Source: Klebsiella pneumoniae (lineage in GTDB: Bacteria; Desulfobacterota; Binatia; UBA12015). Taken from it: 64,000 bases of DNA. Below, piece by piece: positions 10,510-62,091 of the stretch; position 1 is the stretch's first letter; every line of letters starts with the position of its first letter. Under the pieces are notes generated by a model. That model was not told the DNA's origin and made no database searches. It saw only the letters and a program-made list of their open reading frames with translations. Location of the stretch: contig CAMBZJ010000016.1 in the NCBI GenBank assembly GCA_945872365.1, positions 1 to 64,000 of the forward strand, in the 5' to 3' direction. A program made the position numbers and the translations under genes.

Positions 10510-12360
10510 TCAGAGGACGTACTCGAACTGCATGCGGACGTTCGAGCGATCGCGGACGAGGCCCATCTGGTAGCGGTAGACCCCGCTGTTGATTGCCGAG
10601 TAGTCGACGATGAACCGGAAGGGGTCACGTACGAAGCGGATGTTCGGCTGGAACGTGAACATGCCCTGCCAGTCGTAGAACATGTTGAAGCCCGGGGTCA
10701 CCTGGAGGTTCACTTCGGTCATCGGGACCTTGGTGTTGTAAGTGGTGTTGATCGCCAGGGTCTGCAGGAACGAGTCCTGCACCAGCGGCACGACGCGCAC
10801 CGAGTTGTTCGGCTCGGGGATCGGGACGGCCAGGCGGCAACTCTGGCAGACCGAGCCGTTGCGGTCGAAGCCGAAGATGTGGCGATAGAAGAACTGGGTC
10901 GAGAGGAAGAACGTCTGGCTGGGATTGAGCCAGCGGACGTACTGGTTCGTGTCCCAGCCGAGCGCCATGTTGAAGGTATTGCGCCGCACGACGGTGTCGT
11001 AGGTGCCGTTGAGCACCGGGCTCAGGAACTCGGTCACGTACTGCCCGGTGAGGCCCTTGCCCGGGAACCCGGTCTCGGTCGGGCCGCGGAAGAGAGCCTC
11101 GTCCTTGAAGACCGCCGCCTCGGCCCGCAGCACGCTCTTGAGCGAGGGCAGCGCCGTGGTCATCGAGGCGCCGTTCACCCAGACCAGCGGTGCGGTCTGC
11201 TCGGCCGCGATGACCGACTGGAAGCCGGGTACGCCGGCGATCGCCAGCGAACTCGTGTAACCCGGATCAGTCGGCAAGGCGCCGCGAAAGCGCACCGCCG
11301 GGATGTCGAACATGGTCTGGTAGCTGGCGAGCGTGAAGGTGGTGTCCGCCGCGTTGAAGACCATGCGCGCGCCGCCGCGGAAGTTGTGCGCGGAGAGATC
11401 GGGGGCGTTGAGCAGCGCGAGGGTCTGTCCGGTGTACGGGCCGAGCGGATTCGCCCAAGGCGAGCCGGCGGGCGCACCCGGGACGAAGGCGACGGTGCGG
11501 TCGAAGGCCCAGTAGCCCTCGATGAACGCTTGGTCGAGGGGCCCCAGCGTGCCCAGGTTGTAGCTCACGCGCAGCATGTCGAGCGGGACGCGCCGCTCGT
11601 CGAGATCGAGGAAGAAGCCGCCGAAGCTATTGTCGACCGGGTTGATATTGTCGAGCAGGCGGAAGACGTCGGTCTCACCCCAGGCGAGGCTCTGGCGGCC
11701 GAAGCGCATGAAGAAGGGCCCCTGCTCCCAGTCGACGAACGCCTGAAAGAGGCGGTTGCGGTAGTCGCCCACGGCGCGCAGCCGGTTGCGCATGCGATCG
11801 ACGCGGTACTGGGACACCTGTCGGAGGGCTTCGCCGTTCAGGTTTCCGTTGGACGCGACGAAGATCTGGGTTTCGATCTCCTTGAGGCTCTGCCCCTGGT
11901 GGCTGTAAGGGCTGGGGCCCCAATTGTAGATGCTGTCGGCCTCGCCGCGGTAGGTCAGGTAGTAGCGGAACGAAGTCACGTCGGGCAGCGTCTTGCCCAT
12001 GGCGGTCGCGGCCATGTTCCACGGCGTGTACTTCAGGTACTGTTCCGTCCAGGGGAGCAGGTCGTGCTGCCACTTCATCTCGAGGAAGTAGCGGTTCTGG
12101 ATCACGTCGCCGGCGTGCGAGAAAGGGGAGGTGCCCCCGAAGACGCAGTTCTCCGCGTTCGGGGTCGCGTAGCACTCCGCCGGCTGGTTGGCCGGGCGGG
12201 TGGACTGCTTGTCCATCGTGCCGATGCGCAGGTTGCCGTACGCGCGCACGGTCAGGTTGATCGTGTCGGTGATCTTGAGGGCCTGCGCTTCGCGCGCGGC
12301 CAGGAGACCCGTCGCGGCAAGTGCGACGGCGAGCCATCGTCTGCTCGGCCTGTGTGCCAT
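10510..12360 (-). CDS. DUF1302 outer-membrane beta-barrel protein
   Basis: A 616-aa exported protein with a signal peptide (WLAVALAATGLLAAREAQA) and a long run of alternating, aromatic-rich segments ending in a C-terminal pattern RDRSNVRMQFEYVL, typical of outer-membrane barrels. QSLAWGETDVFRLLDNINP and FLDLDERRVPLDMLR are hallmarks of DUF1302. The family is predicted to be porin-like and usually co-occurs with DUF1329. The start ATG has GGGAGGATCCG upstream; the ORF-track extension to 13224 is a shadow of the transglycosylase gene. It is the promoter-proximal gene of the eight-gene unit, 150 nt ahead of the YCF48-like gene. Probably the outer-membrane exit or entry point of the system; that role is inferred. 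Confidence 0.9.
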   Translation of the reverse strand: MAHRPSRRWLAVALAATGLLAAREAQALKITDTINLTVRAYGNLRIGTMDKQSTRPANQPAECYATPNAENCVFGGTSPFSHAGDVIQNRYFLEMKWQHDLLPWTEQYLKYTPWNMAATAMGKTLPDVTSFRYYLTYRGEADSIYNWGPSPYSHQGQSLKEIETQIFVASNGNLNGEALRQVSQYRVDRMRNRLRAVGDYRNRLFQAFVDWEQGPFFMRFGRQSLAWGETDVFRLLDNINPVDNSFGGFFLDLDERRVPLDMLRVSYNLGTLGPLDQAFIEGYWAFDRTVAFVPGAPAGSPWANPLGPYTGQTLALLNAPDLSAHNFRGGARMVFNAADTTFTLASYQTMFDIPAVRFRGALPTDPGYTSSLAIAGVPGFQSVIAAEQTAPLVWVNGASMTTALPSLKSVLRAEAAVFKDEALFRGPTETGFPGKGLTGQYVTEFLSPVLNGTYDTVVRRNTFNMALGWDTNQYVRWLNPSQTFFLSTQFFYRHIFGFDRNGSVCQSCRLAVPIPEPNNSVRVVPLVQDSFLQTLAINTTYNTKVPMTEVNLQVTPGFNMFYDWQGMFTFQPNIRFVRDPFRFIVDYSAINSGVYRYQMGLVRDRSNVRMQFEYVL

Positions 12361-18372: not shown

Positions 18373-18590
18373 ATCCACGGCCAAGCCGATCGAGTTGCTC
18401 TTCGAAGAGATGGCCGGCACACCGGCCGGAGATGGTCCTCGGGCAGATGACCCTGAGCGCGCTCGGCATCGGCTGCATCATCGGCGCCGGCATCTTCGTG
18501 CGGACGCGGCTCGCAGCGAACCGGTTCGCGGGCCCCGGACTCGTCCTCTCGTTCGTCGTCGCCGGAATCGGCTGTGCCCTGCGTCGGGCC
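18373..18590 (+). pseudogene. Remnant of an amino acid permease (APC family), frameshifted
   Basis: Two pieces of the N terminus of an APC-type amino acid permease in different frames. The first reads TAKPIELLFEEMAGTPAG, matching the usual KPIEQLL-type opening. Near 18430 the reading shifts by one frame and continues VLGQMTLSALGIGCIIGAGI and FVRTRLAANRFAGPGLVLSF, the first two transmembrane segments of the family with the conserved GIGAIIGAGIF-type motif. Nothing of the remaining ten or so helices follows; the opposite-strand lipoprotein gene starts at 18595. This is a decayed, truncated gene and not expressed as a transporter. Confidence 0.75.
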
Positions 18591-18594
18591 GTCC

Positions 18595-19097
18595 TCAGGT
18601 GCCGAGCAGGAACGGCAGCGCCGTCATGCCTGCGCCGATCAGGATGCTGAGCGTCGACATCGCGGCCTCCTCCGCCTTCTCGGAGAACGGCCGTTCCTCG
18701 TGGCCCGCCGACGGGGCCTTGCCGGTCTCGTGACCATGACGGTCGGGTTCGCCCGGATCCTCGAGCAGTTCGCCCGCACCCGCGGTGGTCGCGGAACGCT
18801 CCTGGCGGAGCGCCTCGACCTCGCTGCCCGCATCAAAGGGTTCGCCGCCGACCGGCTCCCCGTCGGCGGCGTCGCGGGGCTCGCGATTCGGGTCGGCCAG
18901 CCAACCGACGCTGGGTGCGTTCTCGTGCCAGACCTCGTTGGTCCACTTCGTGCCGAAGCCGTCGTCGAAGAACGGGTCCTCGAAGGGATCGTTGGCCGCG
19001 TCGTGCTTGGTGCCGCTGCAGGCCGCGAACAGGAAGAGCGCCATCGCGACCGCGATCGCGGCGGCCCGGCGGATCCGGCTCGTCGGATGGACCGGTG

Positions 19098-26186: not shown

Positions 26187-26563
26187 TCAGCTGCGCAGCG
26201 TGCGATCGAGAAACGCCGTCGCGCGACGCCACGCGAGTTCGGCACAGGCCGCGTCGTAGACCTCCGGTCGCCGCTCGTTCATGAAGGCGTGCTGCGCGTC
26301 GTAGCGGAACAGCTCGGCGGCGACGCCACCGGCCTTCATCGCCGCCTCGAGCGAATCCACCGCGGCCGGCGTGCACCAGTCGTCGCGGTGGGCGAAGTGG
26401 CCGCTGAAGGGTACGCGGATCTTCGCGGGGTCGGCGGCCGCGACCGGCCCCACCACTCCTGGATCATGACGAAGCCGGGGCTGCCCGCCCCGGCCGGCGG
26501 GACCGCGACGTAGGCCGGGCAGCCGCCGCCGTCGGGACGTAAGACCTCGATCATCTCACCCAT
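26187..26563 (-). pseudogene. Dienelactone hydrolase, internal deletion with frameshift
   Basis: Both ends of a dienelactone hydrolase are present and the middle is missing. From an ATG at 26563 with AAGGAGGAATCGCAC upstream the reading is MGEMIEVLRPDGGGCPAYVA...FVMIQEWWG, the normal N terminus. At about 26441-26458 it jumps, in another frame, to GPVAAADPAKIRVPFSGHFA, then HRDDWCTPAAVDSLEAAMKA and YDAQHAFMNERRPEVYDAAC, the normal C terminus. The gap removes roughly 100 residues, including the nucleophile-Cys elbow; the later Asp (HRDDW) and His (QHAF) remain. The join contains GGGGCC, a possible microhomology. The product cannot be a functional hydrolase. Assembly error is an alternative. Confidence 0.85.
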
Positions 26564-26724
26564 GTGCGATTCCTCCTTCGCCGGGCAGGATGCCCGGAAG
26601 TGGCGACTCGGCACGACCCTTGAGAGCCGCGCCGAGTCGCCGCATCGAGTGTCGTGATTTTTTTCCCAGAGGCGCAACCCCAACGGTCGGGGCCTGTTTT
26701 ATCGCGACAGGAGGGTTCCTGACG

Positions 26725-59622: not shown

Positions 59623-60606
59623 TCAGCTCCCCTTCTGCAGTTCGGGATCGATGATCGCCTTGAAGGACTCGAGCGGCATGGCGCCGGCTAGACGTCGCCC
59701 GTTCACGAAGAAGGTCGGGGTCGAACTGACGCCGACCTCCTCGGCCTCGGCGAGCGAAGTGGCGATCGCTGCCTTGGTCTCGCCCTTGTCGAGGCAGTCC
59801 TTCACCTTGGCTCCGTCCGCACCCGACTCCTTGGCGACCTTGAGCAGCGCGTCGGTCGCGCCCTCGGCCTCGATCGAGGCGGCCTTCGCGAACACCGCCG
59901 AGTGGTACTTCCAGTAGGCATCGTTGCCGGAGAGCTTGTTGATGCAGAGGCCGATCAGCGAGGCGGTCTCCGCCCAGGGATGGATCTGCGTGAGCGGGAA
60001 CTGCTTGTAGACGAAGCGCACCTTGTCGCCGTAGGCCTTGAGGACCTCCTGCTCGATGATGACATGCGCCTTGGCGCAGTAGGGGCACTGGAAGTCCGAG
60101 TACTCGACGATCGTCACCTTGGCGTCCTTGGGGCCGCGCGACGGGTCCTCGGGGTGGATCTTGATCTTCTCGAGCACCGCCATGACCGGGTCGACCGTCA
60201 GGTCGATCGGTTCCGCCTTCATGAACCAGCGCCCATCCTGGGAGAGCAGGAACTTGAGTTCCTGCGACTGCTCGCCGCGGGACAACTTCAACGTGACGTC
60301 GTAAAGGCCCGGGACCTGCGAGGGTTTCATCTCGCCCACGTCCAGAGTGACGTCGGCGGGGATCTGTCCCTGGCCCTCGAAGTAGCGCTTCACCTGTTCG
60401 GCGACCTTGGCGCGGTCGGGCACGGCGGCCGGGGCGGCGGCGGGTGCGGCCGCCGCAGGGGCTGCATGGTCGGACGCGGCGGCGTGCGGCGCCTCCTTCG
60501 AAGCGCCCGAGGGAACCTCTCCGGGGGCGGCGCAGGCCGCAAAGCTCGTCGCGAGCAGGACCGGGAGGGCAAAACGGCGCGTGAGGCGCGCGGTGCGATC
60601 ATTCAT
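59623..60606 (-). CDS. DsbA-family thioredoxin-fold lipoprotein
   Basis: A 327-aa exported thiol-disulfide protein. The N terminus ends in a lipobox (LLATSFAAC, Cys25), followed by an Ala/Pro linker to about 63, a small beta domain (VKRYFEGQGQIPADVTLDVG to LLSQDGRWFMKAEP) and a DsbA-like domain with active site C174-PYC177 in VEYSDFQCPYCAKAH and cis-Pro in GVSSTPTFFVNGRRL. CPYC resembles reductase-type sites, so it may oxidise or isomerise. AAGGAGA lies 8 nt before the ATG; the ORF-track entry to 63378 is a shadow. Convergent with GT2; followed upstream by a broken SDR. Confidence 0.9.
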   Translation of the reverse strand: MNDRTARLTRRFALPVLLATSFAACAAPGEVPSGASKEAPHAAASDHAAPAAAAPAAAPAAVPDRAKVAEQVKRYFEGQGQIPADVTLDVGEMKPSQVPGLYDVTLKLSRGEQSQELKFLLSQDGRWFMKAEPIDLTVDPVMAVLEKIKIHPEDPSRGPKDAKVTIVEYSDFQCPYCAKAHVIIEQEVLKAYGDKVRFVYKQFPLTQIHPWAETASLIGLCINKLSGNDAYWKYHSAVFAKAASIEAEGATDALLKVAKESGADGAKVKDCLDKGETKAAIATSLAEAEEVGVSSTPTFFVNGRRLAGAMPLESFKAIIDPELQKGS

Positions 60607-60785: not shown

Positions 60786-61381
60786 TCAGGCGAGTCCCGA
60801 CATCTCCTTCATGAGATCCTCCATGCTCTGCTTCGGCGGCGGGGCCGCGAAGAAGGCCTCGTCCATCGCCGCACCGAGCGCCTCCGGCTCCCAGACCGCG
60901 TGCTTGAAGTCCCCGACCTGTCGCACCGCCTGCCAGCCGCGGAACAGGTTGAAACGACCGTTGCCCGCGCGGAACACCTCGCCGTGGACGTGGCCGGCAC
61001 GAACACTCGCCAGCCAGACCACGAGCGGCGCGACATGGGCCGGTCCCGCCGCGTCCATCATCTTTGCCGGCACCTGCTCGACGGTCCCGCGGCCCATGGC
61101 CTCGGTGGTAAGCCGGGTGATCGCGCTCGGTGCGATCGCGTTCGCGGTCACACCGTAGCGCGCCATCTCCTTGTCGACGATGACCGTGAGCGCCGCGATG
61201 CCCGCCTTGGCGGCGCCGTAGTTCGTCTGGCCGACGTTGCAGAGGAGCCCGGAGTCCGAAGACGTATTGATGATGCGCCCCTGCAGGTCGTTGCCCTTCT
61301 TGTGCTCCTCGCGCCAGTAGACGCAGGCATGGCGCGAAAGGTTGAAGGTGTGACGATCGCAACCCTTCCTTCGAGCAACAT
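60786..61381 (-). pseudogene. Short-chain dehydrogenase, internal deletion with frameshift
   Basis: An SDR whose N and C termini are intact but whose middle is missing. From ATG 61381, with GGGAGGACAAC upstream, the reading is MLLEGRVAIVT, then stops matching. Around 61346-61352 it jumps frame to TFNLSRHACVYWREEHKKGN, GRIINTSSDSGLLCNVGQTN, YGAAKAGIAALTVIVDKEMA (catalytic Y-x3-K) and continues to the normal end MSMEDLMKEMSGLA-like (QSMEDLMKEMSGLA). About 100 residues, including the GxxxGIG cofactor loop and NNAG motif, are gone. The product cannot bind NAD(P). Its original role was probably a 3-hydroxyacyl-type SDR of lipid or steroid metabolism, judged by similar full-length proteins I recall. 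Confidence 0.85.
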
Positions 61382-61518: not shown

Positions 61519-62091
61519 ATGCCTCTCCTGCTGCTGCTCGGGCTGGTCGTCGCGGCGGTCCTCTGGGCGATCGCGACCTACAACGGACTCGTCTCGCTCA
61601 AGAACGGCGCCGACGGCGCCTGGCGGCAGATCGACGTCCAGCTCCGCCGCAGGCACGACCTGGTTCCGAACCTCGTCGAGACGGTCCGCGGCGCGATGGA
61701 CTTCGAGAAGAGCACCCTTGAATCGGTCATCGCGGCGCGCGCGCGCGCGGTCGACGCCCGGGGACCGGCCGAGTCCGCCACGGCCGAGCGCGAACTCACG
61801 AGTTCCCTCGGGCGCCTCTTTGCGGTCGTCGAGCACTACCCCGACCTGAAGTCGAACCAGAACATTCTCCAGCTCCAGGAGGAACTGACCAACACCGAGA
61901 ACCTCGTGTCGTTCGCCCGCCAGCGCTACAACGACGTCGCCCAGCGCCTCAACACCCGCCGCGAGGCCTTCCCCGGGAACCTGATCGCGGCGCGTTTCGG
62001 CTTCGCTGCGCGCGAGTACTTCGAGGCGAGTGCCGTCGACGCGGAACCGCCGCGGGTCTCGCTCGGTGCCCCGCCCGCGCCGCGCACCTGA
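61519..62091 (+). CDS. lemA: LemA family protein
   Basis: A 190-aa membrane-anchored coiled protein. One N-terminal transmembrane segment (LLLLLGLVVAAVLWAIATYN) and the LemA core: GLVSLKNGADGAWRQIDVQL, RRHDLVPNLVETVRGAMDFE, FAVVEHYPDLKSNQNILQLQ, EELTNTENLVSFARQRYNDV. The family is widespread and of unknown function; here, as often, it is followed by an HtpX-like M48 peptidase (22 nt). ATG at 61519 lacks a Shine-Dalgarno sequence and has a promoter 8 nt upstream. Confidence 0.92.
   Translation: MPLLLLLGLVVAAVLWAIATYNGLVSLKNGADGAWRQIDVQLRRRHDLVPNLVETVRGAMDFEKSTLESVIAARARAVDARGPAESATAERELTSSLGRLFAVVEHYPDLKSNQNILQLQEELTNTENLVSFARQRYNDVAQRLNTRREAFPGNLIAARFGFAAREYFEASAVDAEPPRVSLGAPPAPRT

Follow-up and report, generated by a model that had tools for sequence, protein, structure and literature searches.

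The short-chain dehydrogenase (SDR) gene at positions 60786-61381 (minus strand, contig C16) of the window, meaning the whole 64,000-nucleotide stretch of DNA analyzed here, is very probably a recent, ordinary deletion pseudogene in a genome that is losing redundant catabolic paralogs. We propose that a single spontaneous deletion of the illegitimate (repeat-independent) type took 346 bp out of a dispensable SDR gene in an uncultured Candidatus Binatia bacterium, and that loss of the cofactor-binding half, together with displacement of the remainder out of frame, would leave no working enzyme. The genome to which the window belongs (G000; 3.12 Mb, 57 contigs, 97% complete) has metagenome-assembled Candidatus Binatia and deltaproteobacterial genomes as its nearest named relatives.

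Remnants of an SDR gene in two frames

Translation of the locus showed that both the start and the end of the SDR gene are kept, in different frames. The features of the locus and of its two neighbors (assigned to families by sequence resemblance) are as follows, in window coordinates:

59623-60606, minus: DsbA-like lipoprotein neighbor, intact; syntenic in G002 and G008
60786-61349, minus: SDR C-terminal remnant, TFNLSRHACVYWREEH...MKEMSGLA-stop; in another frame than the start, with no internal stops in the translation
61148-61381, minus: ORF opened by the native SDR start; 77 codons, out of frame after residue 11
61345-61352, minus: deletion join GTCAC/ACCTTC with a 1-bp overlap at 61350 (blastn arm boundaries, alignment and junction sequences)
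61349-61381, minus: surviving SDR start, MLLEGRVAIVT; 28 bp with 96% identity to the starts of the intact G004 and G008 orthologs
61519-62091, plus: LemA-family neighbor, intact; syntenic with G004 and G008, adjoins dsbA in G002

Specifically, the first 11 codons (MLLEGRVAIVT) run out of frame into the last ~187 codons near 61350, and the end of the gene reads ...MEDLMKEMSGLA in a frame differing from that of the start. The remnant frame shares 77-78% amino-acid identity with the G004 and G008 orthologs, matches Pfam PF13561 at positions 122-231 only, and keeps the catalytic Ser and YxxxK (INTSSDSG and NYGAAKAG / YGAAK), both out of reach of the native start; a profile search with the 77-codon ORF opened by that start returned no family match. 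Absent from the window gene are the cofactor loop (TGxxxGxG) and the NNAG motif. The missing interval corresponds to about residues 13-127 of the 313 residues in the intact G004 protein and includes both GAGRGIG (residues 13-19) and NNAG (residue 99). A preliminary description of the locus had proposed this out-of-frame junction to an SDR C-terminal part and the loss of these two motifs, and both are borne out by the translation, the blastn arms and the missing 346 bp. With 346 of ~940 bp missing and the frame broken relative to intact orthologs, where loss of >20% of the protein or a disrupted frame marks a pseudogene, the locus should on sequence grounds be annotated as a pseudogene and not as a short dehydrogenase.

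The 346-bp deletion and its join

Both blastn arms against the two sister-genus orthologs (G004 and G008) end exactly at window position 61350. The arms share 1 base and have 345 reference bases between them, giving a net deletion of 346 bp, a length not divisible by 3; an independent search with the more distant homolog from G003 again found 346 bp missing. As judged from these alignments, the signal is far beyond chance, because a 28-bp 5′ arm 96% identical to both orthologs lies in the right place and orientation.

In the join sequence, GTCACACCTTC, the left flank contributes GTCAC and the right flank CACCTTC or ACCTTC. In the junction sequences and alignment, no exact direct repeat was found at the join beyond the 1-bp overlap, and the longest repeat that the G004 flanks have in common measures 9 bp, lies away from the join and falls short of k-mer length. 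The join of a second broken gene in the window, a dienelactone hydrolase, reads GTGGGGCCGGTC and again overlaps by 1 bp with no collapse of a repeat. Microhomology at the join sites, which the preliminary description had suggested looking for, thus amounts to a 1-bp overlap in both cases, and slippage between short repeats was rejected as an explanation; nor is there a k-mer-sized repeat through which an assembler could have taken a shortcut.

Identity of the intact gene

The intact G004 ortholog scores above the cut-off of NF005861 (PRK07791, SDR family oxidoreductase; 374.5 versus 373 bits). The window copy reaches 175.6 bits, under the cut-off, through a match at profile positions 127-295; it lacks roughly profile positions 12-126, and is a remnant rather than a member able to work. 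Among solved structures, PDB 3qlj (short chain dehydrogenase) is matched by the intact ortholog over 289 residues, and the best relatives include 2et6, the (3R)-hydroxyacyl-CoA dehydrogenase domain of peroxisomal multifunctional enzyme type 2 (E 8e-90), and 17-beta-HSD4 (1zbq and 1gz6, about 1e-50). Unlike 2et6 and 17-beta-HSD4, the intact ortholog is a stand-alone bacterial gene, and the window copy is broken. The closest solved relatives are 2et6 and 3qlj. By resemblance, the lost SDR is a putative (3R)-hydroxyacyl-CoA dehydrogenase of the PRK07791 type.

Genomic neighborhood and age of the deletion

The nearest orthologs, those of the sister genus (G004 and G008), are full length and both adjoin the same lemA neighbor. 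In the congener G002 the SDR gene is gone, with dsbA and lemA ~76 bp apart in the matching interval; the gene is therefore dispensable in the genus. No SDR ortholog above 56% identity was found in the congeners G001 and G002 (the G001 contig ends before the locus), and G000 itself keeps a full-length SDR paralog, at 56% identity, on contig C40.

Codon changes were compared by NG86 and by raw codon-position counts. Changes at codon positions 1 and 2 relative to those at position 3 gave a ratio of 0.71-0.73 in the SDR remnant and of 0.67-1.3 in intact neighbors compared with the same genomes, and amino-acid change in the remnant was no greater than in the neighboring intact genes. Since this ratio falls within the range of intact neighbors, the lesion is either young relative to the split or present only in the assembly; we read the codon pattern as a sign of little neutral decay after a deletion that is probably recent.

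Other broken genes in the window and the genome

The SDR had been described as the second gene in 64 kb with intact ends and a missing middle, and this count proved correct, the other being the dienelactone hydrolase, for which intact orthologs exist in G002, G003, G004 and G008. A fragment of an amino-acid permease brings the broken genes in the window to three, and at least four genes of G000 have a missing-middle or joined-ends structure:

Window 18432-18650, plus: amino-acid permease (family assigned by eye), first ~50 residues (LSALGIGCIIGAGIFV...AGPGLVLSFVVAGIGCAL), rest missing
Window 26187-26572, minus: dienelactone hydrolase, middle missing; 298-301 bp lost, out of frame, ends kept; 1-bp join overlap near 26448
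G000:C1:169300-171700: CoA-transferase scrap, interrupted by two in-frame stops and flanked by cytochrome P450-like and MaoC-like genes
G000:C11:26450-26757: CaiB/BaiF CoA transferase, start MSGPLCGIKVVEIGFWVAGPA joined out of frame to LIDGADVFVSNLRPG...; C-terminal part also missing
G000:C48:9500-12800, about 10940-11362, minus: enoyl-CoA hydratase, ends kept, stretch before the end missing, frame changed

The CoA-transferase scrap on C1 is an older pseudogene. Including the one on C48, three enoyl-CoA hydratases are broken in G000 (on C1, C48 and C5), as are SDRs on C5 and C14. Deletion sizes among the broken genes were about 200, 298, 346, 455 and 1970 bp, a spread by which a match to the library insert size was rejected. 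The relative G003 carries an SDR pseudogene of its own (G003:C16:204800-206600, minus), which lacks profile positions 61-163 and changes frame.

Separately, a 26-30 bp palindrome lies upstream of a putative regulator gene on contig C5 (L237, 2178-2207) and is matched at 97-100% identity in G003, which belongs to another genus and whose copies of the flanking genes are about 76% identical; it is probably an operator.

Frequency of broken genes

Within the SDR, enoyl-CoA hydratase and CoA-transferase families, about 8 of 84 genes were broken in G000, compared with 2 of 125 for G003 (Fisher P about 0.02, a rough value, from small counts in families picked after the cases had been seen and with G000 inspected more closely). 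Two partial SDR matches, C1:85737 (covered end to end) and C3:146735, were left out of the broken count. Because of the post hoc choice of families and the closer look at G000, the modest excess of broken paralogs over G003 is suggestive only. Open-frame length was rejected as a test for broken genes, as spurious frames stay long in DNA of 70% G+C.

We also compared 731 kb of G000 with 1.24 Mb of G003 in both directions by an arm-joining screen that recovers known cases; it replaced a full-coverage ortholog screen, which had missed the known dienelactone hydrolase and in which comparator gene starts were over-extended. The arm-joining screen, for which the G003 counterparts of the two window genes were fetched deliberately, returned three frame-breaking internal deletions in G000, namely the two window genes and a CoA transferase. 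Reverse hits (deletions in G003) mostly look like domain-count or N-terminal differences, although they were not individually checked. In the comparison with G003, out-of-frame internal deletions were seen solely in dispensable-type genes.

In most prokaryotes 1-5% of genes are pseudogenes (PMC3899985), and since such a load is normal, two to three broken genes among about 57 in the window are near the ordinary range. The preliminary description had called the pair of lesions unusual, had taken it to point to a shared cause and had proposed a count of internally deleted genes. Counts in three families gave the modest excess, which fits ongoing genome reduction, and the 731-kb screen gave only one additional case; the idea of a shared cause is weakly supported, and the near-normal load and the like lesion in G003 stand against it.

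Discussion

According to the model we favor, the SDR would be one of several redundant catabolic paralogs turned into deletion pseudogenes, in a genome of smaller size than those of its relatives; the deletion would be present in living cells, not only in the assembly, and would be tolerated through redundant function. Two observations count against the recent-pseudogene reading: the remnant carries neither a further stop nor a further frameshift, as would equally suit a deletion confined to the assembly, and the presence of two events of similar size (298 and 346 bp) within the 64 kb hints slightly at a common cause.

An artefact of assembly, chimerism or strain mixture, whereby the cells or most strains have a full-length SDR and the draft took a wrong or minority path, is unlikely. 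It would suit a draft genome in 57 contigs whose nearest named relatives are all metagenome-assembled, as well as a remnant still under coding-like constraint, but no k-mer-length repeat exists at the SDR join, deletion sizes differ widely (~200 to ~2000 bp), the assembly is 97% complete and in the comparison with G003 its out-of-frame internal deletions were confined to dispensable-type genes, G002 has lost the same gene entirely, and the CoA-transferase remnant on C1 already has two stop codons, as in real old pseudogenes. Mis-assembly, one of the causes first put forward, is on these grounds (1-bp joins without repeats, varied sizes, dispensable paralogs and a congener lacking the gene) not favored.

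We give a similarly low probability to the reading that this Binatia lineage is in active genome reduction with an elevated rate of few-hundred-bp, repeat-independent deletions, so that a good number of catabolic paralogs still retain both their ends. Less probable again is a deletion-prone condition of the whole lineage, such as a repair defect, that yields numerous internal deletions, each a few hundred bases long: the family counts and the four or more missing-middle or joined-ends genes would agree with it, but those counts are small, post hoc and drawn from unequal scrutiny, G003 shows the same kind of lesion, the 731-kb sample contained one further frame-breaking internal deletion besides the window's two (with G003 references), and ordinary genome reduction gives the same picture. 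It is most improbable that a shortened product of the C-terminal 126-189 residues is still translated and used, as the open frame without a stop and the constrained codon pattern might suggest, given that the cofactor-binding half is absent, the best internal ATG (61166) lies past the catalytic YxxxK, and translation from the native start passes into a foreign frame beyond residue 11.

By itself the SDR finding is of little weight beyond correcting an annotation, while the small set of young deletion pseudogenes from an uncultured lineage may be of use for studying the loss of catabolic paralogs. The recent deletion pseudogene we favor is a normal step of gene loss, and nothing exotic was seen. 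Like ordinary bacterial deletion pseudogenes, the window SDR lacks >20% of the protein, is redundant in function and has orthologs that are intact in relatives (PMC3899985), and we find no essential difference between the two.
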